Assembly: GCA_030430025.1 (NCBI GenBank)
Contig: JAUIGR010000002.1
Span: 62,001 to 126,000, forward strand
DNA from: Gammaproteobacteria bacterium
GTDB taxonomy: Bacteria; Pseudomonadota; Gammaproteobacteria; Xanthomonadales; Marinicellaceae
Length of the DNA stretch: 64,000 nt
Reading direction: 5' to 3'
A program made the position numbers and the translations under genes. The notes under the pieces were generated by a model. That model was not told where the DNA came from. It ran no database searches and worked only from the letters and a program-made list of their open reading frames with translations. This document shows positions 1-33,939 of the stretch, piece by piece (position 1 is the first letter of the stretch; the number at the start of each line of letters is the position of its first letter).

Positions 1-63
1 GTCCTGTGCTAAACTCAAAATTTTAACCCAGGCCACGCTGCTGTTCAGCGGGGCTCGTTAGGA
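1..63 (+). repeat. attC site, right part (integron)
   Basis: This is the right half of a long-type attC; the window starts inside it. It matches almost base for base the segments ending at 723, 1501 and 3401, and it ends in the core site GTTAGGA at 57-63, one mismatch from GTTRRRY. It separates an unseen cassette on the left from the lipoprotein cassette. Confidence 0.75.
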
Positions 64-72
64 TTGATTAAT

Positions 73-486: not shown

Positions 487-494
487 CACAATGT

Positions 495-723
495 ACCTAA
501 CAAAACGCTCAACACGGAATGTAACAGCTCAGCTGTTACATTCCGGTTAGCTTAGCCGTTACAGCAGACGCTTGTGCGCCTGCTGTAACGAGCCTCGCTG
601 AATGCCTTCAGGTTGCCCTGTCCACGCAAGCGCTCCGTAACAACCTGAACCAGCAGACATGTCCTGTGCTAAAATCAAAATTTTAACTCAGGCCACGCTG
701 CTGTTCAGCGGGGTTCGTTGGGC
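495..723 (+). repeat. Composite attC site with nested palindromes
   Basis: The site starts with ACCTAAC (495-501) and ends with GTTGGGC (717-723). The inner long-type attC runs from 585, where GTAACGAGCCTCGCTGAA pairs with TTCAGCGGGGTTCGTT near the end. The left 90 bases hold a perfect 29-base palindrome (517-545 region, arms GGAATGTAACAGCT) and a second hairpin with arms CGTTACAGCAG / CTGCTGTAACG. A GTTAGCT at about 546 could be the end of a separate short attC, so this may be two fused sites. Confidence 0.7.
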
Positions 724-737
724 GTTAAGAATGAGGG

Positions 738-1325
738 ATGGCTATGAGTACAGAATTATCTTCGGAGATAATTGCCCCTGAAGGTGCGACAGTAGTTATT
801 ACGCATAGAGTGCGTAATGACAAACATGCTACCTACGAAAAGTGGGTGGAAGAAATTTCTCCTCTTGCCAAGGAAGCTCCCGGCCATTTGGATTGGCACA
901 TTGTTCGCCCGATTCCCGGAATAAGCGAAACCTATGCGGTTATTATTCGATTCGACACTGATGCACACCTAAAAGAGTGGATGGACTCTCCGACTCGCGC
1001 TGGTTTGATTGAGAAAGTTCAACCACTGCTTGTAGCTGGAGATGACTTTTTCGTGAGAAGTGGATTGGATTTTTGGTTTACTCCGGCGGGGGCGAAGGCT
1101 CAAGTGCCAGTGCGCTGGAAGCAGTATTTGATCACATGGTCAGCCATTTATCCCCTAGTGCTCGGTGTGTCGTTTATTGCGGAGCTAGTTCTCAGGTATT
1201 TTGGAGTCTCAAATAATCGTTTCATTACCACGCTCGTAGTAACAGGCATCGTCGTTTGTCTTATGGTGTATGTCGTAATGCCTAGGTACACGAAACTAAT
1301 CAGTCGATGGTTGTTTAAAGAATGA
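738..1325 (+). CDS. Antibiotic biosynthesis monooxygenase (ABM)-domain membrane protein
   Basis: This 195-residue cassette protein has two parts. Residues about 15-105 look like an ABM/YgiN-type ferredoxin-like fold: a first strand VVITHRV, a helix with YEKWVEEISPLA, then HLDWHIVRP and AVIIRFD. Two hydrophobic helices follow at about 130-155 and 163-182, ending in a basic tail. ABM-fold proteins with a C-terminal pair of membrane helices occur widely as small bacterial proteins of unproven substrate. A second in-frame ATG at 744 is possible. The preceding attC ends 15 bases upstream and the next attC begins 8 bases after the stop, so the gene fills its cassette. Confidence 0.75.
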   Translation: MAMSTELSSEIIAPEGATVVITHRVRNDKHATYEKWVEEISPLAKEAPGHLDWHIVRPIPGISETYAVIIRFDTDAHLKEWMDSPTRAGLIEKVQPLLVAGDDFFVRSGLDFWFTPAGAKAQVPVRWKQYLITWSAIYPLVLGVSFIAELVLRYFGVSNNRFITTLVVTGIVVCLMVYVVMPRYTKLISRWLFKE

Positions 1326-1332
1326 AGGAAAC

Positions 1333-1501
1333 ACCCAACAATTCGCTCAAACGGACGTTCGCTATCGGGAGCGTCGCTGAATGCCTCCAGATTGCCCCGT
1401 CACGCAAGCGCTTCGTAACAACTTGAACCAGCAGACATGTCCTGTGCTAAAATCAAAATTTTAACCCAGGCCACGCTGCTGTTCAGCGGGGTTCGTTAGG
1501 C
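1333..1501 (+). repeat. attC site, long type
   Basis: It starts with ACCCAAC (1333-1339) and ends with GTTAGGC (1495-1501), both full matches to the R'' and R' consensus. Its right 90 bases are nearly identical to those of the sites ending at 63, 723 and 3401. Arms GTCGCTGAA and TTCAGCGGGGTTC can pair. Confidence 0.8.
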
Positions 1502-1517
1502 ATAACAAGGCTTCAAC

Positions 1518-1964
1518 ATGAGCAACGAAATTCAATTCTATAGCGTTGGTGATGACTTCGGTGAGTTTTCAAATTTCGCACTATTCCCGATCAAACTAGA
1601 TGGAAAGACTTGGCCAACTTCAGAGCATTATTTTCAAGCGGCAAAGTATGTTGATAAATCAGATCAAGAGACTGTTAGAAAAGCCAATTCTCCAGCTCTT
1701 GCTGCTCGATTAGGTCGAGATAGAAAAATAAAGCTACGAAAAGATTGGGAGTCAGCAAAAGTTGGAGTAATGCGTAAAGCTGTATTAGCAAAATTTTCTC
1801 AGCATCAAAAGCTAAAAGATTTATTACTTTCAACAGGTGATTTAAAAATCGTTGAGCATACTGATAATGACAGCTATTGGGGTGATGGTGGTAATGGCAA
1901 AGGCAAAAATATGCTTGGTAAAATTTTGATGGAAGTTCGCAATGAAATCAGAGACCAAGCCTAA
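1518..1964 (+). CDS. NADAR-family (YbiA-like) N-glycosidase
   Basis: The 148-residue protein is a single NADAR domain (DUF1768). Family-typical motifs are the N-terminal FYSVGD..GEFSNFA, the central WPTSEHYFQAAKY (about residues 34-46), and the C-terminal YWGDGGNGKGKNMLGKILMEVR (split here: YWGDGGNGKG then KNMLGK). E. coli YbiA acts on riboflavin-pathway intermediates, and other members act on ADP-ribose or NAD-derived compounds. Which substrate applies here cannot be told. It occupies a cassette of its own, and its stop codon lies inside the R'' core of the next attC. NADAR proteins are often found in mobile and defence contexts. Confidence 0.88.
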   Translation: MSNEIQFYSVGDDFGEFSNFALFPIKLDGKTWPTSEHYFQAAKYVDKSDQETVRKANSPALAARLGRDRKIKLRKDWESAKVGVMRKAVLAKFSQHQKLKDLLLSTGDLKIVEHTDNDSYWGDGGNGKGKNMLGKILMEVRNEIRDQA

Positions 1965-1992
1965 CAAGGCCAGTCAGCAGGGCTCGTTATAT
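1959..1992 (+). repeat. attC site, very short or truncated
   Basis: GCCTAAC at 1959-1965 and GTTATAT at 1986-1992 flank only 20 bases. TAACAAGGC can pair with GGCTCGTTA, but the usual CAGCG inner arms are mostly missing. It may be a deleted attC that is now poorly recombinogenic. Confidence 0.55.
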
Positions 1993-2008
1993 TTTTAGTA
2001 AATAATTT

Positions 2009-2395
2009 ATGATTATTCGTTTTTTAATTTATTGTTCGGTCATTTTAACTCCATTGCTTTCTCAGGCTCAAGAATGGAAATGTAAAAATGATGTTGAAGT
2101 TCAATGTGAGCAAAGTAAATGTTCAGTGATGGCTGAAGAACATACACCTATGGAAGTGACTTTTAGCGATAGTGGAAAAATAAGTGCTTGTGCGTATACA
2201 GGTTGTTGGGAAGGCTTAGGTACGGTCTCTAAAAACAGTTCGTTTTTGATTTTATCAGTTAAAAAAGCAAAGTGGGTAACGCCAATCAAAACAAAACGAA
2301 AAAATGATCTAATATTTATTTTAGATAAAACGGACAACATAGGATTCATTAAGGTAAATACTTTTGCTCAACCACTGCTGTGCAAAAAAATATAA
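2009..2395 (+). CDS. Hypothetical secreted cysteine-containing cassette protein
   Basis: I do not recognise this 128-residue protein. It has a clear signal peptide (MIIRFLIYC ... LLSQAQ, cleavage after about residue 20). The mature part has six cysteines (CKNDVEVQC, CSV, CAYTGCWEG and a C-terminal LLCKK), so disulphides in the periplasm are likely. The mature chain looks beta-rich (VTFSDSGKISAC; FLILSVKKAKW; DLIFILD). It is the only gene in its cassette, with the attC R'' starting inside its stop region. There is no clear ribosome binding site upstream of ATG 2009. Confidence 0.65.
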   Translation: MIIRFLIYCSVILTPLLSQAQEWKCKNDVEVQCEQSKCSVMAEEHTPMEVTFSDSGKISACAYTGCWEGLGTVSKNSSFLILSVKKAKWVTPIKTKRKNDLIFILDKTDNIGFIKVNTFAQPLLCKKI

Positions 2396-2459
2396 CAATG
2401 CAAATTCAGTTGGACCAGTATGCTGCGCTCCCTGATCCCCTGATTTGCGGGCGTTATAG
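2390..2459 (+). repeat. attC site, short type
   Basis: ATATAAC (2390-2396) and GTTATAG (2453-2459) bound the site. The arm ATAACAATGCAAATTCAG pairs with the complement of CTGATTTGCGGGCGTTAT, leaving mismatches near the outer end, as expected for a folded attC bottom strand. Confidence 0.7.
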
Positions 2460-2470
2460 GTAGGTAGAGG

Positions 2471-2857
2471 GTGCGATTTTTACCCAAGACAAAAATCGAT
2501 GTTGGTGTCAAAGAATACTTGGATAAGGCTAGTAATGATGAATTAGCACCTTATCTATCTGAATTGTTGGAATGGGTTCAAGATATAAATTGGCCAGTAG
2601 CACCAATAATCGTTCAAAGGCTATCGGAATCGGGCATGGAAATTGTGCCTGTCTTGAATGCTGTGCTCCAGGGAGAAGACGAGATATGGAAGTACAATAT
2701 CATTGATAATTTAATTACTAGGTTAAACCCAGATGTCATGAAGGCATCTATGGATGAGGTTGTTCGGATTATTAATGACCCGACAGAAAGTGAAGTGCGA
2801 GAAGAAGTGAACCAGGTAGCCAAAGATGCAATGTGCTTATATAGCAGCAGCGTATAA
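2471..2857 (+). CDS. DUF5071 domain protein
   Basis: The 128-residue protein starts at GTG 2471, eight bases after a GAGG-like sequence. It matches the DUF5071 pattern by eye: a short basic N-terminus, YLSELLEWVQDINWPVAP (about residues 27-44), a helix ending in VPVLNAVLQGEDEIWKY, and a final ...NDPTESEVREEVNQVAKDA. The fold is probably helical and HEAT-like. No catalytic residues are known for the family, and members are common in integrons and in isolated gene islands. It is the sole gene of its cassette. Function unknown. Confidence 0.75.
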   Translation: MRFLPKTKIDVGVKEYLDKASNDELAPYLSELLEWVQDINWPVAPIIVQRLSESGMEIVPVLNAVLQGEDEIWKYNIIDNLITRLNPDVMKASMDEVVRIINDPTESEVREEVNQVAKDAMCLYSSSV

Positions 2858-2892
2858 CAAGCCTCGCTGCTGTTCAGCGGCGCTCGTTATGC
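2852..2892 (+). repeat. attC site, short type
   Basis: GTATAAC (2852-2858) and GTTATGC (2886-2892) match the core consensus. ATAACAAGCCTCGCTG pairs almost fully with CAGCGGCGCTCGTTAT around a five-base loop. At 41 bases this is close to the minimum for a functional attC. Confidence 0.8.
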
Positions 2893-2905
2893 AAATGTAT
2901 AAATT

Positions 2906-3244
2906 ATGAAGCTGTTAGAGTATTTGAGTTCGGTAAAGAAACGACCAGGAATGTACATGACCGATGAAGGTTGCCTACGAGATCTTGAGCATCAACTGTG
3001 GGGTTACCATATCGCGCTTAAACTGCATCAGATAGAGAGTGATGTTTTAAACTTTAATGAGAGCTTTGGGGATTTTCTTTACTCTAAAAAGATGTGGAAT
3101 ACTAGCCGTGGTTGGGCTGATGCTATTGAGCGCAATAGTGCATCGCCAGAAGAAGCAATCGAAATATTTTTTGACTTAGCGAATTTGTACTGTCAAGAAG
3201 AGCTTGAATTAGAAAATGCGATAGACGAGAGTAGAGTAAGGTAA
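2906..3244 (+). CDS. Hypothetical cassette protein with RPGMY motif
   Basis: This 112-residue acidic soluble protein is not assigned. It begins MKLLEYLSSVKKRPGMYM, then LEHQLWGYHIALK, NESFGDFLYSKK, RGWADAIERNSASPEEAIEIFFDLANLY. Small proteins with an N-terminal 'RPGMY/F' turn, a helix with 'GY..A' and a 'RGW...I' followed by an 'EEA...FF.L' helix are frequent in integron cassettes and beside toxin loci. I infer a helical adaptor or immunity-like protein, without direct evidence. There is no membrane segment or signal. It is a single-gene cassette. Confidence 0.65.
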   Translation: MKLLEYLSSVKKRPGMYMTDEGCLRDLEHQLWGYHIALKLHQIESDVLNFNESFGDFLYSKKMWNTSRGWADAIERNSASPEEAIEIFFDLANLYCQEELELENAIDESRVR

Positions 3245-3245
3245 T

Positions 3246-3401
3246 GCATAACAAGCGCCTGCTGTAACGAGCCCCGCTGAATGCCCTTCAGTTTGCTCCG
3301 TCGCGCAAGCGCTCCATAACAACCTGAACCAGCAGACATGTCCTGTGCTAAAATCAAAATTTTAACCCAGACCAAGTTGTTGCTCAGCGGGCTCGTTATG
3401 T
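3246..3401 (+). repeat. attC site, long type (hybrid left end)
   Basis: GCATAAC (3246-3252) and GTTATGT (3395-3401) bound the site. TAACGAGCCCCGCTGA pairs with TCAGCGGGCTCGTTA. The block GCGCCTGCTGTAACGAGCC is shared with the composite site at 577-595, while the outermost left end resembles the short attC type, so it looks like a hybrid. Confidence 0.78.
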
Positions 3402-3447
3402 GTGATCGGGTTCTGTTCGCTACATTCAGAATTGGAATTTAGACAAT

Positions 3448-4686
3448 ATGTCAGAGAACGTAGTTTTAGACAATTTAGATAAGCCGGAGCGCTTAGAAGA
3501 GGCTTACAGGAGTTCGCCAGATATTTTTGAGGCTAATCTAAAGGAAGCGTTAGCGATAAAAAGTGACTCTGAGACACTACGGGTCTGGCATGCGCGAATA
3601 TACTATTTGCCACCGAAATCGTCGCAAAAAGTATCTATTTTATTTTTGGTTCTACTATGTATAGTCACGGGATGTCTTATAAAAATACCGTCGATCTTCC
3701 CTGTTGATGGAAATTGGTTTTACCCTAGATTTGTTCCTCTGATCACCATTTCGGCAATAATTACTTACTTTCTAAAATCAACTGGCAACAAAAATATTTC
3801 AAGGTTTGTTATTACAGTAATAGTCGCTTGCATTTCTTACTTATTAGTTCTTCCTTATGATAGTGATTCAGCTTCAATAACGATGGCATTGATTCATCTG
3901 CCACTATTTGTTTTTAGCTTGTTAGCGATCAGTTTCATGTCTGACCAATGGGATAGTGTAGAGTCTCGGATAAACTTTGTCCGATATGTTGGTGAAATGG
4001 GTATATATTCAGTACTTGTTTTATTGGGTGGTATGGTTTTGACAGCGCTTACTCTTGGCCTATTTAGTCTTATAGACCTACATATTAATAGATGGTACAT
4101 GGAAAATATTGTTGTTTTGGGGATTGTCTTTTCACCTGTGGTCGCAACATATTTATTCGATTCAATTCAAAATCGTCAAAGCAAATTTGCTCCAATTTTA
4201 TCTAATGTATTTTCACCTCTTTTCCTTATTATGGTTTTAGCGTATCTGGTTGCTACGATTTATCAAGGCAAGAGCCCATTTACTGATAGAGATTTTCTCA
4301 TTACTTTTAATGGGCTTTTTCTTGTTATATTGACATTAACTATTTTTTCAATATGTGGAAAAAAGAAAACAGTCGGAGTAGAAGCATCAGACTATATAAA
4401 TATTTGCTTAGTTGGAACTACATTGGTAGTAAATTTGGTCGCACTTTCTGCAATTTTATATCGGTGGGCAGAGCATGGAACTACCGTAAACCGTATAGTA
4501 GTTACTGGTGCAAATATTCTGATTTTTGTCCACTTGGCTTTACTCTTGTTCCAGTATATAGGTCACCTTCGCGATGGTAGAGGAGTTTCAAACCTTGAAT
4601 CTATTATTGCAAAATATTTACCTATATATACTACGTGGTTCCTCATAGTGTCTGTTGTTTTACCATTGATATTTCAATTCAAGTAA
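3448..4686 (+). CDS. DUF4153-like polytopic membrane protein
   Basis: The 412-residue protein has a soluble acidic N-terminus of about 55 residues (SENVVLDNLDKPERLEEAYR...), then about ten hydrophobic segments up to the C-terminus, which ends IVSVVLPLIFQFK. The layout and the final stretch (SIIAKYLPIYTTWFLIV) resemble DUF4153/DUF4173-type inner-membrane proteins. Function is unknown. At 1.24 kb it is large for a cassette gene. The attC of the previous cassette ends 46 bases upstream, leaving a short leader but no obvious promoter. Confidence 0.65.
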   Translation: MSENVVLDNLDKPERLEEAYRSSPDIFEANLKEALAIKSDSETLRVWHARIYYLPPKSSQKVSILFLVLLCIVTGCLIKIPSIFPVDGNWFYPRFVPLITISAIITYFLKSTGNKNISRFVITVIVACISYLLVLPYDSDSASITMALIHLPLFVFSLLAISFMSDQWDSVESRINFVRYVGEMGIYSVLVLLGGMVLTALTLGLFSLIDLHINRWYMENIVVLGIVFSPVVATYLFDSIQNRQSKFAPILSNVFSPLFLIMVLAYLVATIYQGKSPFTDRDFLITFNGLFLVILTLTIFSICGKKKTVGVEASDYINICLVGTTLVVNLVALSAILYRWAEHGTTVNRIVVTGANILIFVHLALLLFQYIGHLRDGRGVSNLESIIAKYLPIYTTWFLIVSVVLPLIFQFK

Positions 4687-4722
4687 AATTCTTAGTATAA
4701 AACATGAAGTGCGACGGTATAC

Positions 4723-4810
4723 ACATAACAAAACAAGCACGTGGACGCAGTTACGCTCCGCTAACCACAAAAATCGTTCCGCTTCACTGCGCCAGCGGTG
4801 CTCGTTAGCC
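4723..4810 (+). repeat. attC site, short type
   Basis: ACATAAC (4723-4729) and GTTAGCC (4804-4810) bound it. The arm with AACAAGCACGTGG...GCAGT pairs with ACTGCGCCAGCGGTGCTCGTT near the right end (in pieces), with an unpaired centre. Confidence 0.72.
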
Positions 4811-4844
4811 GTCCCAAAAACATTCAAGCAAATCAGAGACCTCG

Positions 4845-5534
4845 ATGAATATAAACAAATTGGAAGATGGTACAGAATCATTCGATGTGTCGGTACGGAA
4901 GGGTAAAGAATTTACCCCGGTGGTACTATTTGCGGTTGGTGCAGGCGGAAACCCTGAGCGTCACGTTACGCTTTTGGATACGCTGACCGAATCAGGCTGT
5001 ATGGTTATTGCCCCGCATTTCCCGAGACTTGCTTCGCCAAGGCCGACGGAGGCTGAATTGACGCTCCGAGCAAGGAGGCTGTGCCTTGCACTTGATGTTT
5101 TCGGCCAGTCTGGCGCAACTGTATCTGGCGTGGGCCACTCAATAGGCGCAGCCACACTTGTTACACTAGCCGGAGGGCAAATGTGGATGGGGCCTGGTCA
5201 GCGTGTCGCCATCTCAGCAGATGTGCGGGTAAGTCGTCTTGCTCTCCTTGCCCCACCAACTGGTTTCTTTCAAGCACCGGGAGCACTTGATTCGGTGCGA
5301 ATTCCCATTTTAATGTGGGTGGGGTCCGAAGATAACATCACGCCTCCTTCTCAGGTTAAGTGGCTGGCTCAGGCGGTGCCTGATTCGCAGAGCCTTGATG
5401 TTCGTATTGCTGATGGTGCAGGTCATTTCTCGTTCATGGATCAAACACCGCCTCACGTTGTTGAGCCATTGAAAGACAAACAAGCATTTCTTCGTGAATA
5501 CTCGAGCGAGGTTTGTAATTTTGTGTGCGGCTAA
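4845..5534 (+). CDS. Alpha/beta hydrolase of dienelactone hydrolase type
   Basis: The 229-residue soluble protein has the order of an alpha/beta hydrolase: a strand VVLFAVGAGG with an oxyanion-type loop, AHFPRLASPRP, the nucleophile elbow GHSIG (about residues 98-102), the acid loop MWVGSEDNITPP, and a catalytic histidine in GAGHFSFMD. Serine, Asp/Glu and His are thus all present. It is shorter than many relatives and lacks a lid domain and signal peptide. Base composition is clearly richer in GC than the neighbouring cassettes, which suggests a different source genome. Substrate unknown. Confidence 0.75.
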   Translation: MNINKLEDGTESFDVSVRKGKEFTPVVLFAVGAGGNPERHVTLLDTLTESGCMVIAPHFPRLASPRPTEAELTLRARRLCLALDVFGQSGATVSGVGHSIGAATLVTLAGGQMWMGPGQRVAISADVRVSRLALLAPPTGFFQAPGALDSVRIPILMWVGSEDNITPPSQVKWLAQAVPDSQSLDVRIADGAGHFSFMDQTPPHVVEPLKDKQAFLREYSSEVCNFVCG

Positions 5535-5588
5535 CAAGCGCAGGTATTGGGATAAAATTTCCGCTGTGCTCAGCGGGGCTAGTTACAA
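5529..5588 (+). repeat. attC site, short type
   Basis: GGCTAAC (5529-5535) and GTTACAA (5582-5588; last base off-consensus) bound it. CTAACAAGCGCAG can pair loosely with CAGCGGGGCTAGTTA. The R'' core overlaps the stop of the hydrolase gene. Confidence 0.68.
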
Positions 5589-5600
5589 CTCAGGAGAGTA

Positions 5601-6336
5601 ATGAGTAAATTTTCGGAATTAGATAGAAATGCTTTCTTATTGTCTGTACTTGAAGACGTAGAGGTGGCTTTTTCTGACATAAAAGTTGATAGGTTAGCTA
5701 TAGAGCTATCTGATGATGTTGAATTATCTGAATATCAATACTATATCCAAAAAGTAGGTTTCTACTTAGTCCATACAATCTCTTGGTGTAAGCAACTGGA
5801 TTTGGCTATCGAGCTGTTATCGAACTTTGATTACTCAAAGAAAGAAGCTTCACGGGCAGACCATCTAATTTACAATATTGAGAACTACCTAATTCGCATT
5901 AAGTCTGTACATGATCGAGTCCTTCAGCTGGTAAATGCAGTATTTCATCTGTGTATTAATGAAGCTAATGTAAATCATGGCGTAATAGTCAGTAATTACA
6001 AAGTCCAACACCGTCCAGAAATACTTATGGCAGTTAAAGCCATAGGTAAATATCTTAGAGAGCACGAGCAAATCAGGCCTTACCATTCATCGTCATTCGT
6101 TACTTGATAAAGACCTAAAGAAAATTGAATTGTTCTATTTAAACAATTTAGAGCACATAGATGATGAGGAGCAGGTCAAGAAATACAAGTATGTACGGAC
6201 TGAGTATCTAAAAAGGTTTTTATCTGATAAAAAGTCTGAGTTCAAAGAAATAAACAGTGTTCTATACACTCTAATTAGTACTCTATTTTTAGAACTTAAG
6301 CCAGAGTACGAAAGGCAAAAAAAGATTATCAGCTAG
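5601..6336 (+). pseudogene. HEPN-like (Cthe_2314-type) protein, frameshifted at the RX4H motif
   Basis: Two reading frames together make one protein of about 245 residues. The first (5601-6107) runs through helices ending HRPEILMAVKAIGKYLREHEQIR, then goes out of frame into a stop. Reading on in the next frame from 6079 gives LTIHRHSLLDKDLKKIELF and continues to the stop at 6336. The join falls between 6077 and 6079. Restoring two bases there gives an R-N-x3-H motif, the RX4H signature of HEPN ribonucleases. A 2-base deletion has therefore probably destroyed the catalytic motif. The alternative is a sequencing error. It occupies one cassette. Confidence 0.65.
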
Positions 6337-6339
6337 AAG

Positions 6340-6411
6340 TTATAACAAGGCGCTGCTGCAGGAAAAATTTTCCGCTGCGCTCCAAAATTGCCGCAAAGCG
6401 CGGCGTTAGAT
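6340..6411 (+). repeat. attC site, short type
   Basis: TTATAAC (6340-6346) and GTTAGAT (6405-6411) bound it. AACAAGGCGCTGCTGC pairs with the complement of GCCGCAAAGCGCGGCGTT. This is the last attC seen; none follows the next gene. Confidence 0.75.
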
Positions 6412-6435: not shown

Positions 6436-6765
6436 ATGAGTGATGGAATGGTAAAGCCACATATAAATGTGAGAAATATGGCGCGAAACATTTCTTTCAT
6501 ACTGAAGACTTTTGCTTTGAGGCTGAATCAGGCTCTGATAGAGGCATGGGAGAGGAGGTGCAATATGGCTGAACTTGATGATCCGTGCCACAATTGTGGT
6601 AACGAAATACGCTTGAAATTTGAGGTTTGGGAGTACCCAGTTGGCATAGTTAATATGAGCAATGATGATTCATCGGGGGCCGAAATTCTTCAAAGCGATT
6701 TCGATATTTATCACGAACCGCCTCAAGAAGAGCATGAAGAGGCTATGTGGCTTGTGAAACGATAA
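6436..6765 (+). pseudogene. Last cassette gene, zinc-motif protein with two compensating frameshifts
   Basis: A continuous frame of 109 codons exists, but its codons 5-43 look out of register. The alternative frame across 6448-6566 reads NGKATYKCEKYGAKHFF, then HTEDFCFEAESGSDRGMGEE, then VQY, and leads naturally into AELDDPCHNCGNEI of the main frame, followed by EVWEYPVG. This fits a loss of one base near 6447 and a gain of one near 6567. Cys-X2-Cys pairs suggest zinc binding. If the shifted part is not made, translation could start at ATG 6565, which has a strong GAGGAGG site. The final codons (VKR, stop) lie in the att repeat at 6753, so the cassette's attC is gone. Confidence 0.5.
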
Positions 6766-6784
6766 GAGGGGGAGAATCACATTA
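6753..6784 (+). repeat. Outer att-like repeat (third copy)
   Basis: TGTGAAACGATAAG followed by AGGGGGAGAATCACATT matches the att copy at 8007 except that eight bases (ATGGTGCG) are absent. About 30 bases beyond it (ATAAAGCATTGACTTTGAAAG) also resemble the sequence after 8041. It marks the outer end of a decayed second element and truncates the cassette array. Confidence 0.65.
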
Positions 6785-6809
6785 TCATATAAAGCATTGA
6801 CTTTGAAAG

Positions 6810-7798
6810 ATACTCGTAGTGCATTTAGAAAATATTAAAGAAAATAAGTTACCCACAGCAACAAGATGGTATATTTATTGGTGCTTAAATCAAAAATAAC
6901 CAATACTATGAGTAACTTAGAATTCAGTTACAACAAAATATTAGGCACATTGCATCAAGTAGAATCAAAAGAGAACTTTTTAAACCAAATCAGAAAACTA
7001 AAACTCAGTGATATTGAGTTGATTGCTTTAAATTTAACCTCAGAATATCTGGGGCTTGATTCAGAATATGAGCTGTTTAGACGCCTTCCAAAACATATCA
7101 GTGACAAAATTGAAAGGTCTGTTTATAACCCAAGGAAGAAAGGGTTATTCTTTTATATTGAATCGCTTAGGGTAAAAATAGCAGATCAGATAATTGCTGA
7201 TGATAACTACTTCATCATTGATTCAATGCCGCTTGAGGTATGTAAAATGAGTGGTGCCAACAGGTCAACTATTTGTACAGAGTCAATTGAATCATCTCCC
7301 AACCACGATTATTGTGCTTCACAACAAATGAGGTTCTATGGTTACAAGCTGCATTCGGTTTGTTCATCTACAGGTGTATTTAAAAGTTTTGATCTCACGC
7401 CTGCATCAGTACATGATATTCATTATCTTCAGGATGTAAAACAACAGATGAATGATTGTGTTTTGATAGGAGATAAAGGCTATTTATCACAGACAATTCA
7501 GGTTGACTTATTTGAAATCAGAAATATAAAACTTGAAGTGCCAATGCGAAAAAATCAGTTAAACTTCAAACAGATGCAATGGCCACTGTGGAAAGCCAGA
7601 AAACGAATTGAAACATTATTCTCTCAGCTGTGTGATCAATTTCAAATTCGACGAAATTATGCAAAATCATTTAAAGGTTTCAAATTAAGAATTCTCTCAA
7701 AGTTAACTACTTTAATCGTGATTCAATGGATTAATCTTCAAGACGGGCGTAATATTAACAACTTGAAAATCAAAATAGCCTAAATGTACTACGGGTAT
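6810..7798 (+). mobile_element. IS982-family insertion sequence
   Basis: Imperfect terminal inverted repeats are visible: ATACTCGTAGTGCATTTAG at 6810-6828 and the complement of CTAAATGTACTACGGGTAT at 7780-7798, differing at two of 19 positions. The enclosed length of about 989 bp fits the family. I see no convincing target duplication. The transposase stop codon lies inside the right repeat. Confidence 0.8.
6866..7783 (+). CDS. IS982-family DDE transposase
   Basis: The frame of 305 codons starts at 6866; ATG 6908 (MSNLEFSYNK) is the more family-like start and would give 291 residues. Family motifs are clear: YFIIDSMPLEVCKMS (first catalytic Asp), FYGYKLHSVCSSTGVFKSFDLTPASVHD split around residue 170, CVLIGDKGYLSQ (second Asp) and ARKRIETLFSQLCDQFQIRRNYAKS (here in two parts: KRIETLFSQLCDQF and IRRNYAKS), which holds the catalytic Glu. 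Length is normal and no frameshift is seen, so it may be active. It is transcribed away from the cassette array. Confidence 0.9.
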   Translation: MVYLLVLKSKITNTMSNLEFSYNKILGTLHQVESKENFLNQIRKLKLSDIELIALNLTSEYLGLDSEYELFRRLPKHISDKIERSVYNPRKKGLFFYIESLRVKIADQIIADDNYFIIDSMPLEVCKMSGANRSTICTESIESSPNHDYCASQQMRFYGYKLHSVCSSTGVFKSFDLTPASVHDIHYLQDVKQQMNDCVLIGDKGYLSQTIQVDLFEIRNIKLEVPMRKNQLNFKQMQWPLWKARKRIETLFSQLCDQFQIRRNYAKSFKGFKLRILSKLTTLIVIQWINLQDGRNINNLKIKIA

Positions 7799-8006
7799 AA
7801 ATCAATAAATTATACAATATAACCTTTCAGGACGGCCGCGTCACAAACCCGCTTTAGGTGCAATTTTGGAACCCTAAGTCACAAAACCCAAAAGCGAAGA
7901 TAAACCATATTATGTGATGTTTCTGTGGGGCAAGTAAAGAAGCTTTATGGAGCTTATAATGCTATATATGGTAGTTTTAGTGGAAAATTGAAGCTTGATG
8001 AAGTGC

Positions 8007-8040
8007 TGTGAAACGATAAGATGGTGCGAGGGGGAGAATC
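8007..8040 (+). repeat. Distal att site of the tRNA-Leu element
   Basis: TGTGAAACGATAAGATGGTGC then GAGGGGGAGAATC repeats the last 20 bases of the tRNA-Leu gene (on the complement, including the CCA) plus its downstream flank, with one base missing relative to 15167-15201. The similarity extends leftwards for about 70 more bases. It defines the far boundary of the island. Confidence 0.75.
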
Positions 8041-8093
8041 ACATTGCATTTTAAGATATTGATATTAAAGCAAATATAAAATTACTCGAAAAT

Positions 8094-8114
8094 GTTACTG
8101 TCAAAGTTACTGTC
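8094..8114 (+). repeat. Candidate integrase arm sites, distal end
   Basis: Two direct copies of GTTACTGTC (8094-8102 and 8106-8114), separated by AAA, lie about 55 bases inside the distal att site. The same TACTGTCAAA repeat occurs in pairs next to the integrase gene (15047-15072). Repeats shared by both ends are expected of arm-type integrase binding sites. Confidence 0.5.
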
Positions 8115-8214
8115 TTTTTTCTTTGCGACTACTCATTATTATGGATTGGATAAATTAAAATCTGTCATAGCTACAATCTATTGATTCGCAATTTTTAATC
8201 TGAGTTTAGTATCG

Positions 8215-8496
8215 TTATTTTGCACTGACACTGATTCTCAGACCAATCTGATCAAGCACCTTGCTGATAGTACTGAATTGAGGATTGCCGTTTTTACCAA
8301 ATGCACGATATAGGCTTTCACGAGCCAAACCTGTTTTATTGGCAAGTTGAGCCATACCACCAAGAGAATCAATCACCTCACGGATTGCCAACAAAAACAA
8401 TCGGTCATCACCTTCCTCTATAGCGACCGCAATATAAGCCGCCCGTTCCTCATTGGTTTTGAGGTAATCACTTGTTTTATACGGTTTAGTTTTCAT
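8215..8496 (-). CDS. HigA-type antitoxin (addiction module antidote)
   Basis: Taking ATG at 8496, the protein is 93 residues: MKTKPYKTSDYLKTNEERAA, then AYIAVAIEEGDDRLFLLAIR, a helix-turn-helix of the type seen in HigA/probable addiction module antidotes (GGMAQLANKTGLARESLYRA), and a C-terminal FSTISKVLDQIGLRISV. The upstream toxin frame overlaps it by 11 bases, so the two are translationally coupled. The antitoxin second, toxin first order is typical of higBA. It should neutralise the toxin and repress the operon through the palindrome at 8814. Confidence 0.88.
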   Translation of the reverse strand: MKTKPYKTSDYLKTNEERAAYIAVAIEEGDDRLFLLAIREVIDSLGGMAQLANKTGLARESLYRAFGKNGNPQFSTISKVLDQIGLRISVSAK

Positions 8497-8803
8497 TGTA
8501 CTCACTCCAAAAAGCTTTGGCCTGTTTAATATCATTGGCTTGACTGGACTTGTCACCACCACAAAGCAATAACACCACTTTCTTGCCAGTCCAGCCGTAA
8601 TAAACGCGGTAGCCTTTGCCCTCGTTTATTTTCAGTTCTCTTACACCATTTCCAACTGACCGCCAGTGTCCTTCATTGCCAAGTCTTAAACGGTCAATCC
8701 TGATTTGTATTTTTGCCCTTGCTCGTTTGTCCTTTAAACCATCAAACCAAATATCAAAAGGACACCAATCATGTTCAGCAACAAACTTGGTGATTTCTAT
8801 CAT
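8486..8803 (-). CDS. HigB/RelE-family toxin (phage-derived Gp49-like)
   Basis: The 105-residue protein matches the short RelE/ParE-superfamily 'addiction module killer' group: WFDGLKDKRARAKIQIRIDRL in parts, NEGHWRSVGNGVRELKIN, GYRVYYGWTGKKVVLLLCGGDKSSQ and a final DIKQAKAFWSEY. Members of this superfamily are ribosome-dependent mRNA interferases or gyrase inhibitors. The conserved R-E-L and Y-R-V-Y-Y stretches are intact, so the toxin appears functional. It is the first gene of a two-gene operon with the antitoxin, and probably stabilises the island. Confidence 0.9.
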   Translation of the reverse strand: MIEITKFVAEHDWCPFDIWFDGLKDKRARAKIQIRIDRLRLGNEGHWRSVGNGVRELKINEGKGYRVYYGWTGKKVVLLLCGGDKSSQANDIKQAKAFWSEYNEN

Positions 8804-8813
8804 AGACCATATT

Positions 8814-8829
8814 GTAACTTAAAAGTTAC
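8814..8829. promoter_or_regulatory. Palindromic operator of the toxin-antitoxin operon
   Basis: GTAACTT-AA-AAGTTAC is a perfect 7-base inverted repeat ending 11 bases upstream of the toxin start. Its place and symmetry fit autoregulatory binding by the HigA-type antitoxin. Confidence 0.55.
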
Positions 8830-9198
8830 ATAAGAAAAATAATAAATTACAAAAGGTACTTTCCAGCCCTTTGGTTTACGGGGGCTGTCGAGCGCAAGGT
8901 TTCGTTAGACTTATCCTGTAGGGGGTTGTTGTTTAAGTTTGGTAAGGGGGTAGGTTTAAAACCTGATAAGTACACCGGATGATTCGTTTGCTTAATCGTT
9001 TATTTTTATCCGCAATATTTTAACTTCCAGAATTATGAAACTGTTTTTCAAATTCTGTGAATGTAAAAAAATGACTGGCTGTACGTTAGTTTCAACAATA
9101 GGCAATATACTTTCTTAACCCCTCGTACCCCTCTTTTTTATAGTATCCAAAAATGCAAAACGTTAAACTTAAACTTTAATAGCTATAAATTACAGCTT
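8830..9198. other. Intergenic stretch without a recognised gene
   Basis: This AT-rich stretch lies between the divergent toxin operon and the secreted-protein gene. It contains a C/G-rich patch (CCAGCCCTTTGGTTTACGGG) ending in GTTAGAC at about 8904, which resembles an integron core site, but I find no matching partner arm. The run before 9199 is AT-rich and probably holds the promoter of the next gene. I see no ORF of interest. Confidence 0.4.
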
Positions 9199-9957
9199 AT
9201 GAACTTTAAAACATCAGCGATTTTTTTAATACTGCCGCTCTTTTCATTTGCTCAAGAGATGACTTTCCCTAACTATCCAGTAACAACTTTATTGCACTCC
9301 ACTAATGATGAGATACATGGTCTTAATGTTGAGTGTGAACAGATATCATCTGGTAGTAATTTCAAAATTGGATGTAAGTTTGCTCAAACAATGATTTCAG
9401 CAAAACAAAATAAAGATAGTATTGATAATGAAATTAACGAAATGGCAAATTCTGCGGAAGTAACCTTTATAGAGTTTGCGAATGGTGTTTGCAGTCAAAC
9501 AAAATCAGCTCAAAAAAATGATTTAAGTAATGACGAATTGAAAGTTTTGCAAAAATCAAAAGAACTTTGTAATGTTTCTACTGAAGAAGATGCAAAGGAA
9601 AAAGCAGTAAGCCTACTGCGATATATTAAAACAGAAGAATCAAAAATTTGTGTTGTTAAAACTGGTTATCAGTGGCAAGAGTCTTTTACTTATAAATCAA
9701 CAAATGACGGACTGGGTTATTGGGTTTCAGAACCCACTCCCTCTGGCACATGTGGCATTATGAATATTTCCACTTTAAAACAAAACCCTGGGTATGACTT
9801 TTTATGGTTATATGAATCACAAAGGATTATCACTAACAAAGAAGCAAAATACTCTGATTCAGTATCTTGTTCGATGTTTGACGAGCGCAAAGTAACTTTC
9901 TCATGGAAGTCTAAATCACATATTTTAAAATGTGAAAAAATAGAATTTGGCCTTTGA
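9199..9957 (+). CDS. Hypothetical secreted protein (island cargo)
   Basis: I do not recognise this 252-residue protein. It has a signal peptide (MNFKTSAIFLILPLFSFAQ, cleavage about residue 19) and no further membrane segment. There are eight or nine cysteines in the mature chain, several in CEQ, GCKF, GVCSQ, ELCN, KICVV, GTCGI, SCSM and LKCEK contexts, suggesting disulphide bonds. The middle (about 70-130) is rich in Lys, Glu and Asn and probably helical. It is the only + strand gene of the element and sits at its distal end with its own AT-rich leader, so it is likely cargo expressed separately from the element's core genes. Confidence 0.65.
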   Translation: MNFKTSAIFLILPLFSFAQEMTFPNYPVTTLLHSTNDEIHGLNVECEQISSGSNFKIGCKFAQTMISAKQNKDSIDNEINEMANSAEVTFIEFANGVCSQTKSAQKNDLSNDELKVLQKSKELCNVSTEEDAKEKAVSLLRYIKTEESKICVVKTGYQWQESFTYKSTNDGLGYWVSEPTPSGTCGIMNISTLKQNPGYDFLWLYESQRIITNKEAKYSDSVSCSMFDERKVTFSWKSKSHILKCEKIEFGL

Positions 9958-10019
9958 TAAGAGCATGTAGGTACATATCTTCTTCTATAGAAGGAGGGAA
10001 CACACATATGCGCATCATT

Positions 10020-10433
10020 TTAGCCCTCTGAAATCGCTCTTACTTCATCATCGGCCATACCAGAAAAATCAGGCTCATCATCAAAGTTGGTGCGCAGTTT
10101 CACAACCATCATATCAGACGTATCTGATTGAAACTTTTGTTTATCAGAATAACCAAAGTTATGAAGCATGAGCTTTGTAATTGAAGCATTAAACTCACCA
10201 GTTAGTCCTTTGTTAAGCAGGGTTAAATGCTGTTGATCTTTGATTTGCTCTAACGTGCCCGAAAACTCTTGCTTGTCATCGTTATTTTTCCATGATGAAA
10301 TGGTGCTTTTGGCTATGCCTAAAACGCTTGATAAACCAACAATCGAGGGGAAAAGATGATCGTACTTTTCATAGTTGTGCAAATAGTCTTTGGTCTTGGC
10401 TAATACTTCATCATTGTATTTTGTGGGTCTCAT
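10020..10433 (-). CDS. Phage terminase small-subunit-like (DNA packaging) protein
   Basis: From ATG 10433 the protein is 137 residues: MRPTKYNDEVLAKTKDYL, then LFPSIVGLSSVLGIAKSTIS (a helix-turn-helix), W, ... LEQIKDQQHLTLLNKGLTGE and FNASITKLMLHNFGYSDKQK. This is the pattern of phage small terminase / gp3-type DNA packaging proteins. An upstream in-frame extension to 10511 is possible but unlike the family. A lone small terminase without a large subunit is a hallmark of phage satellites that redirect a helper phage's packaging. The recognition and any interference are inferred. Confidence 0.75.
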   Translation of the reverse strand: MRPTKYNDEVLAKTKDYLHNYEKYDHLFPSIVGLSSVLGIAKSTISSWKNNDDKQEFSGTLEQIKDQQHLTLLNKGLTGEFNASITKLMLHNFGYSDKQKFQSDTSDMMVVKLRTNFDDEPDFSGMADDEVRAISEG

Positions 10434-10681
10434 AATATTCTCACTTTGTTGTTTTTGAAGTGACGGCGCAAACCAATATTTTTTATCAATTTGCCACCGC
10501 CACCAGTGCACACTTTTCTATTTACAATTATCTGCCTACACTGTTAATCAAAGGCAAATCTCACTGTAGTAGCACCCCCTTTGAAAGCTATATGTAACAA
10601 GGCTTTACAATGGGTTTTGAGTGCCTCTACCTCTTTCTCTATCTTTACCTCTAACTCAAACATATAAAAAAGGTAAAAAAA

Positions 10682-11140
10682 TTAAATAGGTTGCGCATCA
10701 ATCACCCTTGAATAAATCATTTGGTCTGGGTGGTTTTGTTGCTTTCTGTTTTTGGTTACATCATCAACATCAATCAAGTACAAGCCATTTAATTTAGACA
10801 GCGGCACACGATAATGCGGTACTTTGGGTGATGTTGGGTTAAGTCGGTAATAAAAAGCCATCAAATCGCCACGTGGAGGGGCTATAAAGCCCCCTTTCTC
10901 ACGGGTATTGCCTTTGTGGCGTTTCAGGTTAAAAAACGCTGGTATGTGCTTACCGTTGTATTTTCCAGCTTCAACAATGGTAAATATCAAAGCAATGCGT
11001 GAAGCAGACCTGAATTGAAACGTAACCCATGTTTCGAACATCGCTTCATACTGCCCTTTGGGTAATCGCAACCAGCCGTCATATTTATATTTGGCTGGTA
11101 GCCCTGCAAAGTCATTGTTTAAGTTAACTATCTCACCCAT
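10682..11140 (-). CDS. Hypothetical satellite protein
   Basis: From ATG 11140 the protein is 152 residues, with AGGTGA placed six bases upstream; it overlaps the preceding gene's stop in ATGGGTGA, so the two are coupled. A longer frame to 11212 overlaps that gene and is less likely. The sequence (YDGWLRLPKGQYEAMFETW, then SASRIALIFTIVEAGKYNG, then PRGDLMAFYYRLNP) has no signal or membrane segment and no motif I can name. Its place between a winged-helix regulator and a terminase-like gene suggests an element-specific replication or regulatory role, which is only a guess. Confidence 0.65.
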   Translation of the reverse strand: MGEIVNLNNDFAGLPAKYKYDGWLRLPKGQYEAMFETWVTFQFRSASRIALIFTIVEAGKYNGKHIPAFFNLKRHKGNTREKGGFIAPPRGDLMAFYYRLNPTSPKVPHYRVPLSKLNGLYLIDVDDVTKNRKQQNHPDQMIYSRVIDAQPI

Positions 11141-11444
11141 TGGCATCACCTTTATGGCCTTTGTACCAATAGGTTGCCAGACCATTCTTATTCCAGTCTT
11201 GGGTCTTCTCAATAATATGACCAGCTTCTTTTAATTCACTGATGCGTTTAGCGCCGGAGTAGTAGCCCATATTGCGCATTTGCTCAGAACTGATGTGGCC
11301 GTCATGTTTAAGTATTCCCAGAATCGTCTCACGTTGGCTTATACGGCTTTTCATCCGTTGCCTAACCTGTTTGCCAGTCGGTGGTGGATTCTTGGGCTGG
11401 TTGCTGTTAAAATTTCTCAAAGATGAGCTTTCAGTAATTGACAT
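11133..11444 (-). CDS. Winged-helix DNA-binding protein
   Basis: The 103-residue protein has a basic, Pro/Asn/Gln-rich N-terminus of about 35 residues and then a winged helix: RETILGILKHDGHISSEQMRN, MGYYSGAKRISELKEAGHII and a wing ending NGLATYWYKG. This arrangement is common in small phage and satellite regulators. It is followed by a four-base-type overlap with the downstream gene, so the two are probably one transcript. It may control the element's late genes; that is inferred from position. Confidence 0.75.
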   Translation of the reverse strand: MSITESSSLRNFNSNQPKNPPPTGKQVRQRMKSRISQRETILGILKHDGHISSEQMRNMGYYSGAKRISELKEAGHIIEKTQDWNKNGLATYWYKGHKGDANG

Positions 11445-11482
11445 TATTGTCTCCTTTAGTAAGGTTTATTGGAATGCAACTC

Positions 11483-11519
11483 AAAACCCGATCTGGTCTG
11501 CAAACTTAGTTCGGGTTTT
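11483..11519. terminator. Bidirectional hairpin terminator
   Basis: AAAACCCGA (11483-11491) and TCGGGTTTT (11511-11519) pair around a 19-base loop, with T runs on both strands. It lies downstream of the AlpA-type gene and upstream of the winged-helix gene, so it could end or attenuate the early transcript. Confidence 0.55.
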
Positions 11520-11553
11520 TTATTGCGCGTAACAAAATCAGCGGAACGTATCA

Positions 11554-11757
11554 TTAACATGCGACACGCTCCGCTTTCTTTTGATTGATGACTTGATCTA
11601 CTTCTGACTTGATGAATCGAGTAGAGCGGCCTATTTTGATTGGTGGTGGTAGAGTTCCATCAAGAACCCAACGGCGCACCGTTGATTTGTGTATTTGAAA
11701 TATAGAGCAAAGTTCTTTAGTCGAATATGCTCTGTCAGTGCTATTGATTGTCTGCAT
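11554..11757 (-). CDS. AlpA-family helix-turn-helix protein (excisionase/activator)
   Basis: The 67-residue protein is a single MerR-like winged helix of the AlpA/excisionase type: AYSTKELCSIFQIHKSTVRR, WVLDGTLPPPIKIGRSTRFI, ending KSEVDQVINQKKAE. In P4-like and PICI-type elements AlpA proteins activate integrase or excision. A single short gene of this kind between integrase and packaging-like genes fits that role. Confidence 0.88.
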   Translation of the reverse strand: MQTINSTDRAYSTKELCSIFQIHKSTVRRWVLDGTLPPPIKIGRSTRFIKSEVDQVINQKKAERVAC

Positions 11758-11922
11758 AACTGTCTCATGGATTGAATTACATTCCCCATGATAGCTATGA
11801 AACTAATTGAATCAACTTATAGAATTTAAGGTCTTGAAAAGTGCTTAGAAAGTGCGTTTTTTAGTGTGATTTTATTAAAAAGATAGATGAAATATACAAA
11901 TTGGTGCTTGGAAAGTGCTTAC

Positions 11923-13022
11923 TCAATTTTTAACTGGGTTAATAACTTTGTTTTTAAACTTTGAAAAATTTCCTTTTATTCTCTCTATTTTGACTTTGTG
12001 AGTTGTATCCCTGGTTTTTTTACCATTGATTTCTATTGTCTTGTTGAAAGTAACATATTCATCCGTAACAGCATGAATCAAGGATGAATCTCTATGAAGC
12101 TCAACCAAGTGGCTCATAAACTGTTTGGGTGTAATCACACTGTCATGATCAGGTTCTTTATTTTTAAGAAGGAGTAATATTTCTTGGAATATCCTGTAAT
12201 AATCACTTTTATTTGCAACTCTTAAATGTTCAATAGCAGCATCTAAAAAAGTTCTCGCTTGTGTTGTTTCATTATTTAGTGATTTTTGAAAAGATAGGCC
12301 ATCAGTGTCGGCAATATTGTCTTCATCAATATCAATATGACTATTATGGTCATTAGGGTCATAACCACCTTTACTTTTTATTCTGATAGATGCAGTTTTG
12401 GCTTTTTCTACCTCTTTTTTTCGCTTGATTGCTTCTGTCTTTTCTATTTCAGCTATTGCTTGGATTTCGATATTCTTTTTGTTTGCAAAATTTATTATTT
12501 CAGCTTCTAAAAAATAAACGTTCAAAATATAAAACATGGGTTGTTTTAACTCGCTTCTGATATTCCAGGTATATAGTTCAGCATGAGTTATTGGGGTGTC
12601 ACCCATTAATTTCCTATCAAGAGCCATCATTATGTTGTTTAAATCAATAGGGAAATAAAACTCAGTATCTAATTTTGGTTTTACGCCATCTATTAAGCAA
12701 TATTCTGTTGGATATAAACAAAGTGATCGCATGGCACTAAGTACAAACTCAAAGAAGCCTTTGAAATTAAATGTTTGTTGATAGTTATATTTTTGAGGAT
12801 TTGACAAAACATTGGAAACCGAAAGGTCATTAATGATGTTTCTATTAAAGTCAGCTTCAACCGCCTCTAAATTGTCTATGTCGGCTTTTACTAATGTAAC
12901 CAAACCATCAAATAAATATAGTTCGTAATGCTTTTGGCAAAAATACCAACTGAATTATTATTGTCTAAGGCTTTATTGAGTTCGCTTATTGAGTAAAAGT
13001 TATTATCTTCAAACTTTTTCAT
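11923..13022 (-). pseudogene. Hypothetical element protein with probable frameshift near its start
   Basis: The main frame runs from about 12957 to 11923 and has only a TTG (12903) as a possible start; the coding look begins further up (QKHYELYLFDGLVTLVKADI). The upstream frame from ATG 13022, preceded by GGGAAAGGG, reads MKKFEDNNFYSISELNKALD, then NNNSVGIFAKSI and would join it if one frameshift near 12935 were repaired. The combined protein is about 365 residues with a Lys/Glu/Ala coiled coil near the middle (EIEKTEAIKRKKEVEKAK) and an acidic Asp-rich linker. I do not recognise a replicase or primase motif. If the main frame alone is used, it is 326 residues. Confidence 0.5.
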
Positions 13023-13126
13023 CACCCTTTCCCGTGATCTTTCAAAAAAGGAACCATGCCAGAAGCGGTTGAAAGTGTCCGCTGTTCAGTAGCTAACCTA
13101 TGGCATGGCTGTTTTGCTTTATTATT

Positions 13127-13264
13127 TTAATCAATATAGATTACAGCTTCAAAACCTTTACTTCTGATAATATTCAGTGCTTTCTTTGCATTGACTATTG
13201 ATGTAAACCAAGGGCTTTTATGCTCATTTTTATTTCTAACGCTTAAAACACAATATTTTCTCAT
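13127..13264 (-). CDS. Small 45-residue protein of unknown function
   Basis: ATG 13264 is preceded by GGAG at nine bases. The product begins MRKYCVLSVRNKNEH, continues with SPWFTSIVNAKKALNIIRSK and ends GFEAVIYID. The mixture of strand-helix-strand looks like a real small fold. It starts 15 bases after the end of the S24-like gene and lies in the same direction, so it is likely in that operon. Nothing else is known. Confidence 0.5.
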   Translation of the reverse strand: MRKYCVLSVRNKNEHKSPWFTSIVNAKKALNIIRSKGFEAVIYID

Positions 13265-13278
13265 CTTAAGCATCTCCA

Positions 13279-13686
13279 TCAATGTCTTGAGTTGTCATTT
13301 TTGGCTATTGGGAAAGCCTTGCCAATAACTTTGATTTCTTTGGCAAATGACTTTTTATCAATAATTTCAGGTAGGATTACAGTATCACTATTTTCACTGC
13401 CATCATATAATCCACGTAGTTCTAAATAGCCAAGTTCGTGAACATTTACCCAGCTTAGAAACTGTTGATCACACCGTTCAATTAAAAATAATTCATTCGC
13501 GCCGTGGTTGATTTCAGTTTTAGATTCATCAATCAATATGAAATTGGATTGTAATAGGTTTGTGTCATTAACATCTGTGTAGTTTAGAATGGTTGAACAT
13601 TCAACATTTATGTCATTTGCCTTTAGCCATTTTTTTGAAACTGGTATTTGGTCAGTCGATGACAGATTAGCTTTAATTTGATTCAT
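13279..13686 (-). CDS. Possible S24/LexA-like repressor C-terminal-domain protein
   Basis: The 135-residue protein has no obvious DNA-binding domain. The segment FILIDESKTEINHGANELFL, then IERCDQQFLSWVNV, LGYLELRGLY and a final IKVIGKAFPI resembles the strand order of S24/LexA C-terminal domains, in which a strand with 'D.S...I.hG' precedes 'V..IGr..'. The catalytic Ser/Lys pair is not certain: Ser in DES and Lys further on are candidates only. Position beside the integrase fits a repressor or antirepressor. Treat the assignment as tentative. Confidence 0.45.
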   Translation of the reverse strand: MNQIKANLSSTDQIPVSKKWLKANDINVECSTILNYTDVNDTNLLQSNFILIDESKTEINHGANELFLIERCDQQFLSWVNVHELGYLELRGLYDGSENSDTVILPEIIDKKSFAKEIKVIGKAFPIAKNDNSRH

Positions 13687-13765
13687 TGTTTTTTCCTGTT
13701 TTTAGTAATTGAAACAAACAGTCATCAGGCAGGAGTTACGCGTATTTGCCTGATGGTGTTTGCTC

Positions 13766-14986: not shown

Positions 14987-15046
14987 GTTCTTCTTGGCAG
15001 TAATAAATAGCAGTAACTACTGTCACCACACTGACAAAATAATCAA

Positions 15047-15072
15047 GATACTGTCAAACTTACTGTCAAAAG
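15047..15072 (+). repeat. Candidate integrase arm sites, proximal end
   Basis: ATACTGTCAAAC and TTACTGTCAAAA are direct repeats, with a further CTACTGTCACC at about 15017. The same TACTGTCAAA is found at the distal end (8094-8114). They lie between the integrase start and the tRNA. Confidence 0.5.

Positions 15073-31743: not shown

Positions 31744-33939
<2,196 letters not shown>

Follow-up and report, generated by a model that had tools for sequence, protein, structure and literature searches.

Tandem satellite-like elements at a Marinicella tRNA-Leu(CAA) gene, with an outer unit that appears to be a relic

We suggest that the tRNA-Leu(CAA) gene in this Marinicella genome has been used repeatedly by one family of satellite-like elements, for which tRNA 3' ends serve as attB. 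In this model, an older, outer element was joined later by a related but distinct inner element, and we give this reading a probability of roughly 90%. The locus would document, in legible form, that a single tRNA site was used repeatedly; in order towards the tRNA, it would show possibly a scar, then a relic and then an intact-looking element. The window, i.e. the whole 64,000-nt stretch of DNA analysed here, corresponds to C11:62001-126000 of a draft genome of 3.08 Mb in 114 contigs (below, C, G and L numbers denote contigs, genomes and loci, respectively).

Results

Three att copies and two sets of element ends

The attachment site is the 3' end of tRNA-Leu(CAA) (15182-15268, minus strand; ARAGORN, Rfam). 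As the initial annotation had it, the att repeat is present in all three copies, which start at 6753, 8007 and 15167. The copy at 15167 abuts the tRNA 3' end at 15182 and holds the 20-nt core (15182-15201), while the second core (8022-8040) lacks one C relative to the tRNA copy. The copy at 6753 is present, but not as a full core, because 8 nt are missing (6766-6778). The resulting order is tRNA, inner element and outer unit, arranged head-to-tail with one common att core in three copies.

Left of the copies at 8007 and 15167, the flanks align without gaps over a 70-nt repeat with 77% identity, and their local alignment covers 84 columns including the core, with approximately 60 of these left of the tRNA-like core. 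After removal of the core, the score was reached by none of 1000 dinucleotide shuffles. The match described initially for these flanks is thus real, but it extends over approximately 60 nt outside the core and not approximately 90. The right flanks of the copies at 6753 and 8007 are 74% identical over 42 nt, of which 13 nt belong to the core; of the 29 positions outside the core, 18 (62%) agree.

For an independent comparison, matrices were built from the ends of relatives, with no sequence from the window's contig and with the core removed. Against 15 proximal ends from elsewhere, the left flank of the 8022 core (30 nt) scored 25.0 bits. The right flank of the 6766 core (33 nt, all the nucleotides before the IS) scored 16.7 bits against 13 distal ends. 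Both scores were matched by 0 of 200,000 random words from the genus and 0 of 20,000 shuffles. The distal match that had been proposed is therefore also genuine, with a length outside the core nearer 33 nt than approximately 30 nt. With a proximal matrix that includes the inner element's own end, the 8022 left flank reached 26.7 bits (true proximal ends, leave-one-out: 11.1-29.5 bits), and with an earlier distal matrix the 6766 right flank reached 16.9 bits (true distal ends, leave-one-out: 4.8-23.1 bits). Hence, when properly aligned, the flanks on both sides score above every random and shuffled control rather than at chance level.

Could this similarity nevertheless reflect chance, or only host-factor (IHF-like) sites together with the tRNA core? 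The distal similarity is short and contains an IHF-like match, and two of the 11 tRNA-Leu(CAA) flanks in which no element is recognised score above background, i.e. those of G002 (2.5 bits, p 0.0013) and G007 (-5.9 bits, p 0.025). Set against this, the core-free and contig-free scores top all controls on both sides and are in register with the core, while the other nine of the 11 element-free flanks score below -14 bits, as does the empty site in G005 (-18.9 bits against the proximal matrix). We consider this explanation extremely improbable. When the core is included, as in the end model, weak matches appear in two of the 11 element-free flanks (G002 and G004).

Judged by sequence, a proximal end adjoins 8022 on the left and a distal end adjoins 6778 on the right, which is what a second element at 6766-8021 would predict. 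By contrast, the left flank at 6753 resembles the other two left flanks over 150 nt only at the level of shuffles, as expected for an outer junction, save for its last 14-16 nt. The identity and the order of the ends are read directly from the sequence. Thus, the initial reading of two related elements inserted in tandem holds, both after proper alignment and with independent members of the family. A duplication of the inner element in place, or recombination between two copies, would also give a common core, the same orientation and adjacent units. It would, unless very old, leave nearly identical ends, but identity is no more than 77% between the proximal ends (70 nt), and the distal ends agree at only 18 of 29 positions outside the core. 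In-place duplication was rejected on account of this dissimilarity, and we regard the whole alternative as very improbable and two integrations as the likelier history. In this history, the older, outer element would have integrated at the 3' end of tRNA-Leu(CAA), and the inner element would then have integrated between the outer element and the tRNA, giving rise to the three att copies.

The inner element is satellite-like and looks intact

The inner element spans 7.16 kb (8022-15181). By end comparison, its proximal end lies at 15040-15181, with a direct repeat pair at 15049-15067, and its distal end at 8041-8140, with a repeat pair at 8095-8114 and an IHF-like match at 8052-8064. We take the latter match to be weak, given 13 matches across the 64-kb window. 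All recognised genes are on the minus strand. From the tRNA side, they begin with a tyrosine integrase of 406 aa (13766-14986; Arm-DNA-bind_3, Phage_int_M and Phage_integrase by Pfam and PHROGs), which is followed by an int-alpA RNA (13039-13109; Rfam RF02996, with 36.0 bits barely above the cut-off of 35.8), a protein of 326 aa that matches no family in Pfam or PHROGs (11923-12903) and an AlpA/excisionase-like HTH protein (11554-11757; matches to HTH_17 and excise), for which the name AlpA is given by resemblance and place. Next are an HTH_39 winged-helix protein (11133-11444; Pfam), a 176-aa protein without a Pfam or PHROGs match (10682-11212), a small terminase-like (GP3_package) protein (10020-10511; Pfam 2e-21, PHROGs and phage matches) and a toxin-antitoxin pair of the HI1419/HI1420 type (8215-8803; family matches). 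The TerS-like protein is matched by 36 phage records, none of them over 80% of its length. The frames of the integrase and the regulator are open, which is read directly from the sequence, and the element looks intact.

Among named contigs, the best and the third-best relatives of the integrase are from Marinicella. In ten other integrase-bearing elements, some of them truncated where a contig or the retrieved sequence stops, tblastn at E values of 1e-4 or lower found relatives of the AlpA-like protein in seven, of the 176-aa protein in five, of the HTH_39 protein in four and of the TerS-like protein in one. Of the features of Gram-negative PICIs, for which the relevant sections of PMC6092414 were used, the inner element has the integrase with an alpA-type regulator, the int-alpA RNA and the optional terS-type gene. 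No primase family was matched in Pfam and PHROGs by the 326- and 176-aa proteins or in PHROGs by a 135-aa protein, and a diverged primase is possible. Because no primase was found, we do not file the element as a PICI; in gene content, it is satellite-like. The inner proteins scanned against family databases gave no match to a conjugation family.

The AlpA-like protein shares 97% identity with its counterpart in an element at tRNA-Leu(CAG) (C35, L063), while the two integrases are 59% identical. This difference suggests that modules are exchanged between elements.

Related elements and an empty site in the genus

Where both ends are seen, the Marinicella elements measure 5.0-8.2 kb. The proximal-end model finds 36 places in 13 of 18 genomes of the genus and the distal-end model 22 places in 10 of 18 (E up to 0.01 in both cases, with the weakest matches near chance). 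Weak matches to the proximal model on C5 and C32 have neither an integrase match nor an adjoining tRNA and were dropped as likely due to chance. Members of the family were found at tRNA genes for Leu(CAA), Leu(CAG), Leu(TAA), Phe, Thr and Arg. G014, G008 and G001 each have one element at tRNA-Leu(CAA), with ends of the same type and lengths of 7.24, 7.26 and 5.39 kb, respectively. The site is empty in G005, where the 4020 nt left of the core are 99.3% identical to G001 and lead straight into the tRNA. The initial annotation had suggested looking for strains with one element or none; genomes of this kind were found, all of them from other species. Likewise, the empty-site comparison of G001 and G005 concerns another species pair than that of the window.

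Direct repeats near both ends co-vary between elements (TTACTGTCAAA; TTACCAACAA; ATACCCCC). Because the repeats of the two ends change together, we infer that they, including those at 15049-15067, are likely arm sites of the integrase.

A one-base asymmetry between att cores

Compared with the tRNA of the same genome, one C is missing from 10 of 14 distal cores. The shortened cores are those at 8022 in the window, in G014, G008, G006, at tRNA-Phe in G004, in G010, and two each on C91 and C6, with one of the C6 cores having two further changes. The C is retained in the remaining four, i.e. G001, G003 (Thr), G016 (Arg, with three substitutions) and G016 (Phe). This count omits the copy at 6766, which lacks 8 nt, two distal ends for which no tRNA of the same genome was at hand for comparison (G001:C20 and G002:C1), and weaker distal matches, and the distal model itself is derived mostly from shortened cores. 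It is unlikely that the same deletion arose ten times independently in displaced tRNA ends. If the distal core is instead carried by the element, strand exchange would take place left of the missing base, within TGGTGC. The exchange would then fall within the initial 6-7 nt of the core, leaving the body of the tRNA in the chromosome and the distal core on the element. The missing C hints at a crossover near the CCA end of the tRNA, while the pair G001/G005 limits the crossover only to the 20-nt core. A one-base difference between tRNA core and element core would serve to locate the crossover.

The outer unit as ends around an IS982

Of the outer unit, approximately 90 nt of the proximal end and 46 nt of the distal end, core included, are left. 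The distal stub (6779-6811; alignment and end matrices) is followed by an IS982-family insertion sequence on the plus strand (6812-7796; ends set by comparison with other copies) with terminal inverted repeats and a transposase (6866-7783; NF033520, 222.9 bits against a cut-off of 130). Next are 134 nt that gave no significant match in a similarity search of the loci compared (7797-7930), and the proximal stub with an approximate left edge (7931-8021; alignment and end matrices). The absence of the interior is directly visible, and the description of the outer element as reduced to its ends plus an IS is borne out. Among the 12 frames of at least 30 aa that overlap 6750-8060, none resembles an integrase, and the IS982 transposase is the sole one recognised. 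Neither outer end, including 7797-7930, has a recognisable set of arm repeats. Like a cis-mobilizable element, the outer unit has no recombinase of its own, but its att sites are not intact at both ends; because arm repeats are unrecognisable at both ends and the 6766 core is short by 8 nt, the unit is probably an immobile relic.

No target duplication was seen around this IS982, while an internally deleted relative on C114 has a 9-nt duplication on both sides (ATTAACTAT, found by eye). This difference suggests, as the simplest account, that a deletion adjacent to the IS removed the interior of the outer element. In this scenario, IS982 would have landed in the outer element, and the deletion would have taken the interior together with the integrase and the arm sites.

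An alternative is that the unit between 6753 and 8007 did not decay but was always a mini-element, consisting of cargo and ends and moved in trans by the integrase of its neighbour. C6 holds an att-bounded unit of only 1517 nt in which HigBA are the sole recognised genes and both ends have arm-like repeats, and tandems at fis have been described in sections of PMC10111431 as split into 17+3 and 15+2 kb. The unit in the window, with no recognisable arm repeats at either end and no target duplication around the IS, fits decay better, and a mini-element seems unlikely here, though not negligibly so.

In G011, the relative that matches best at tRNA-Leu(CAA), 15 nt just left of this tRNA (L009:732-746) are identical to the outer distal end (E 0.1, which could be chance).

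A possible scar of a third element

Immediately left of 6766, a run of 14 nt differs at only one base from its counterpart at the 8022 core. Against outside proximal ends, the 16 nt at 6753, a span picked after the match was seen, scored at a level reached by 5 of 200,000 random 16-mers and 2 of 20,000 shuffles, and with an earlier matrix by 4 of 300,000 random words. Over 30 nt, the same flank is not convincing (-3.5 bits, p 0.012; with another matrix, 3285 of 200,000 as high). We tentatively suggest that these 14-16 nt, annotated here as 6752-6765, are a proximal-end-like scar of a third, oldest element that was deleted nearly as far as the tRNA. The tRNA targeted by the outer element might, with less support than the other steps, already have carried this scar. 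The initial reading of the locus may thus be incomplete, not wrong.

Candidate scars also exist elsewhere. In G006 and G010 and at C91:31860, the flank left of a distal core outscores every one of 100,000 random words, as do the flanks of two tRNAs that lack an intact proximal end, Leu(CAG) in G015, where 174 nt remain to the contig end, and Leu(TAA) in the window's own genome. In G014, considered as a candidate for a further tandem, the distal left flank scores only 4.7 bits (p 0.0008), and the left flanks of distal cores in G016:C8, C91:38472, G002:C1, G001:C20, G001, G008, C6:6519 and G004:C1 are all negative; none of these clearly shows a scar. The occupied site in G001 has plain chromosome left of its distal core. 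In G016 (L233, C8, approximately 142.9 and 146.8 kb), some 80 nt left of tRNA-Phe are almost exactly repeated left of a distal end 3.9 kb away.

The candidate scar also forms the 3' end of an open reading frame (6436-6765). This frame has no homologue in 17 other genomes of the genus, and its part from 6565 on has one weak match (E 0.0097) among 369 genomes of the class, its own included. A full third element further to the left was rejected: C11:2001-62000 has neither the core pattern (up to two substitutions) nor the proximal 18-mer (up to three), and for this reason we propose no more than a scar. With the end model, a weak proximal-like stretch appears at tRNA-Leu(TAA) (C11:59159-59259, E 0.0056).

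To the left, between tRNA-Leu(TAA) and the elements, lies an integron-type cassette array (window 1-6410 and C11:59580-62000; L060) of small genes between attC-like repeats, e.g. 481-722, 1323-1501, 5529-5585 and 6342-6409, with the repeats called by eye rather than with an attC model. Next to the start of the array, C11:59256-59381 weakly and tentatively matches residues 3-44 of integron integrase (22.6 bits, E 1e-4); in this search, all 14 control genomes also gave weak matches, none over the cut-off. C45 and C80 carry two complete intI genes between them. It is possible that the array is a decayed integron.

Two further arrays in the same genome

On C6, from high to low coordinates, an att copy at 6519 is followed by a 1517-nt unit, an att copy at 5004 and another element. 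In the unit (L064:5003-6520), a HigB/HigA pair represents the sole recognised genes, arm-like repeats are present at both ends, and the distal and proximal ends match the models at positions 3-120 of 123 and 3-158 of 162, respectively. On C91, an att copy at 31860, a 6612-nt unit and an att copy at 38472 precede another element that extends to the contig end. The frames of this unit (L219:9860-16472) include those for PD-Lambda-4_A, a SLATT protein and a TIR protein of the ThsB type as well as one of 78 aa, and none is recognised as an integrase; the unit's own proximal end is unrecognisable (-7.6 bits). The junctions of proximal end, core and distal end are at C6:4888-5143 and C91:31753-31952. 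Within the contig stretches examined, neither array has an adjoining tRNA and neither inner element an integrase. The arrays are linked to tRNA-Leu(CAG) (C91) and tRNA-Phe (C6) by the tRNA type of their cores; no exact overlap joins C91 to C35, which holds tRNA-Leu(CAG), or C6 to C12, which holds tRNA-Phe.

In all three arrays found in the genome of the window, the outer unit is without a recognised integrase. A non-exhaustive scan of regions of the other 17 genomes gave no second att-bounded unit, while scar-like flanks were seen. We speculate that tRNA 3' ends stack integrase-less, att-bounded cargo (HigBA on C6; PD-Lambda-4, SLATT and ThsB-TIR on C91), which is exchanged in trans by the satellite-like integrase nearest the tRNA, and that the att core short by one base marks the element side and keeps the tRNA out; as a whole, we consider this scheme rather improbable. 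With three arrays, integrase-less outer units and two of these with toxin-antitoxin or defence genes, movement in trans becomes a testable question.

Discussion

Tandem accretion, including unequal satellite pairs and members free of an integration module, is in principle already published. In Streptococcus thermophilus, CIME/ICE accretion, reportedly described by Pavlovic in 2004, places att-bounded units without recombination genes beside an element that has them. That system involves conjugative elements, whereas the Marinicella inner proteins that were scanned match no conjugation family.

In Dehalococcoides, several islands are arranged in tandem behind the single ssrA gene and bounded by repeats of its 3' end, and 15 islands without an integration module are thought to be possibly mobilizable in cis (PMC3146451). 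There, too, the gene copy and the repeats disagree in a constant manner (PMC3146451), similar to the missing C in Marinicella. However, the ssrA islands rely on a serine recombinase and a tmRNA, while the Marinicella elements have a tyrosine integrase and use tRNAs, and the cargo differs.

Tandem PICI pairs at fis and tRNA-Ile2 have three att sites and in some cases very unequal members, with 17+3 and 15+2 kb (PMC10111431). These are likewise satellite-type tandems with three att copies, but in other hosts and at other sites, and the sections of this account used here do not describe outer units that consist of ends and an IS. PICMI satellites of approximately 6 kb from marine bacteria have int and alpA (PMC10803314). 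Their model requires a primase and their prototype lies by fis, whereas the Marinicella inner element is at a tRNA and no primase was found in it. For P4-like satellites, it has been considered that large calls may reflect pseudogenised tandems (PMC8628076). Literature searches for integrons and for genomic islands in Marinicella yielded no description of the elements reported here.

What the present analysis adds is the possible scar of a third element, the two further arrays on C6 and C91 and the asymmetry of the att core. Compared with the known systems, the Marinicella stack is ordinary in kind but unusually legible, and it stands out through its recurrence and its att asymmetry.
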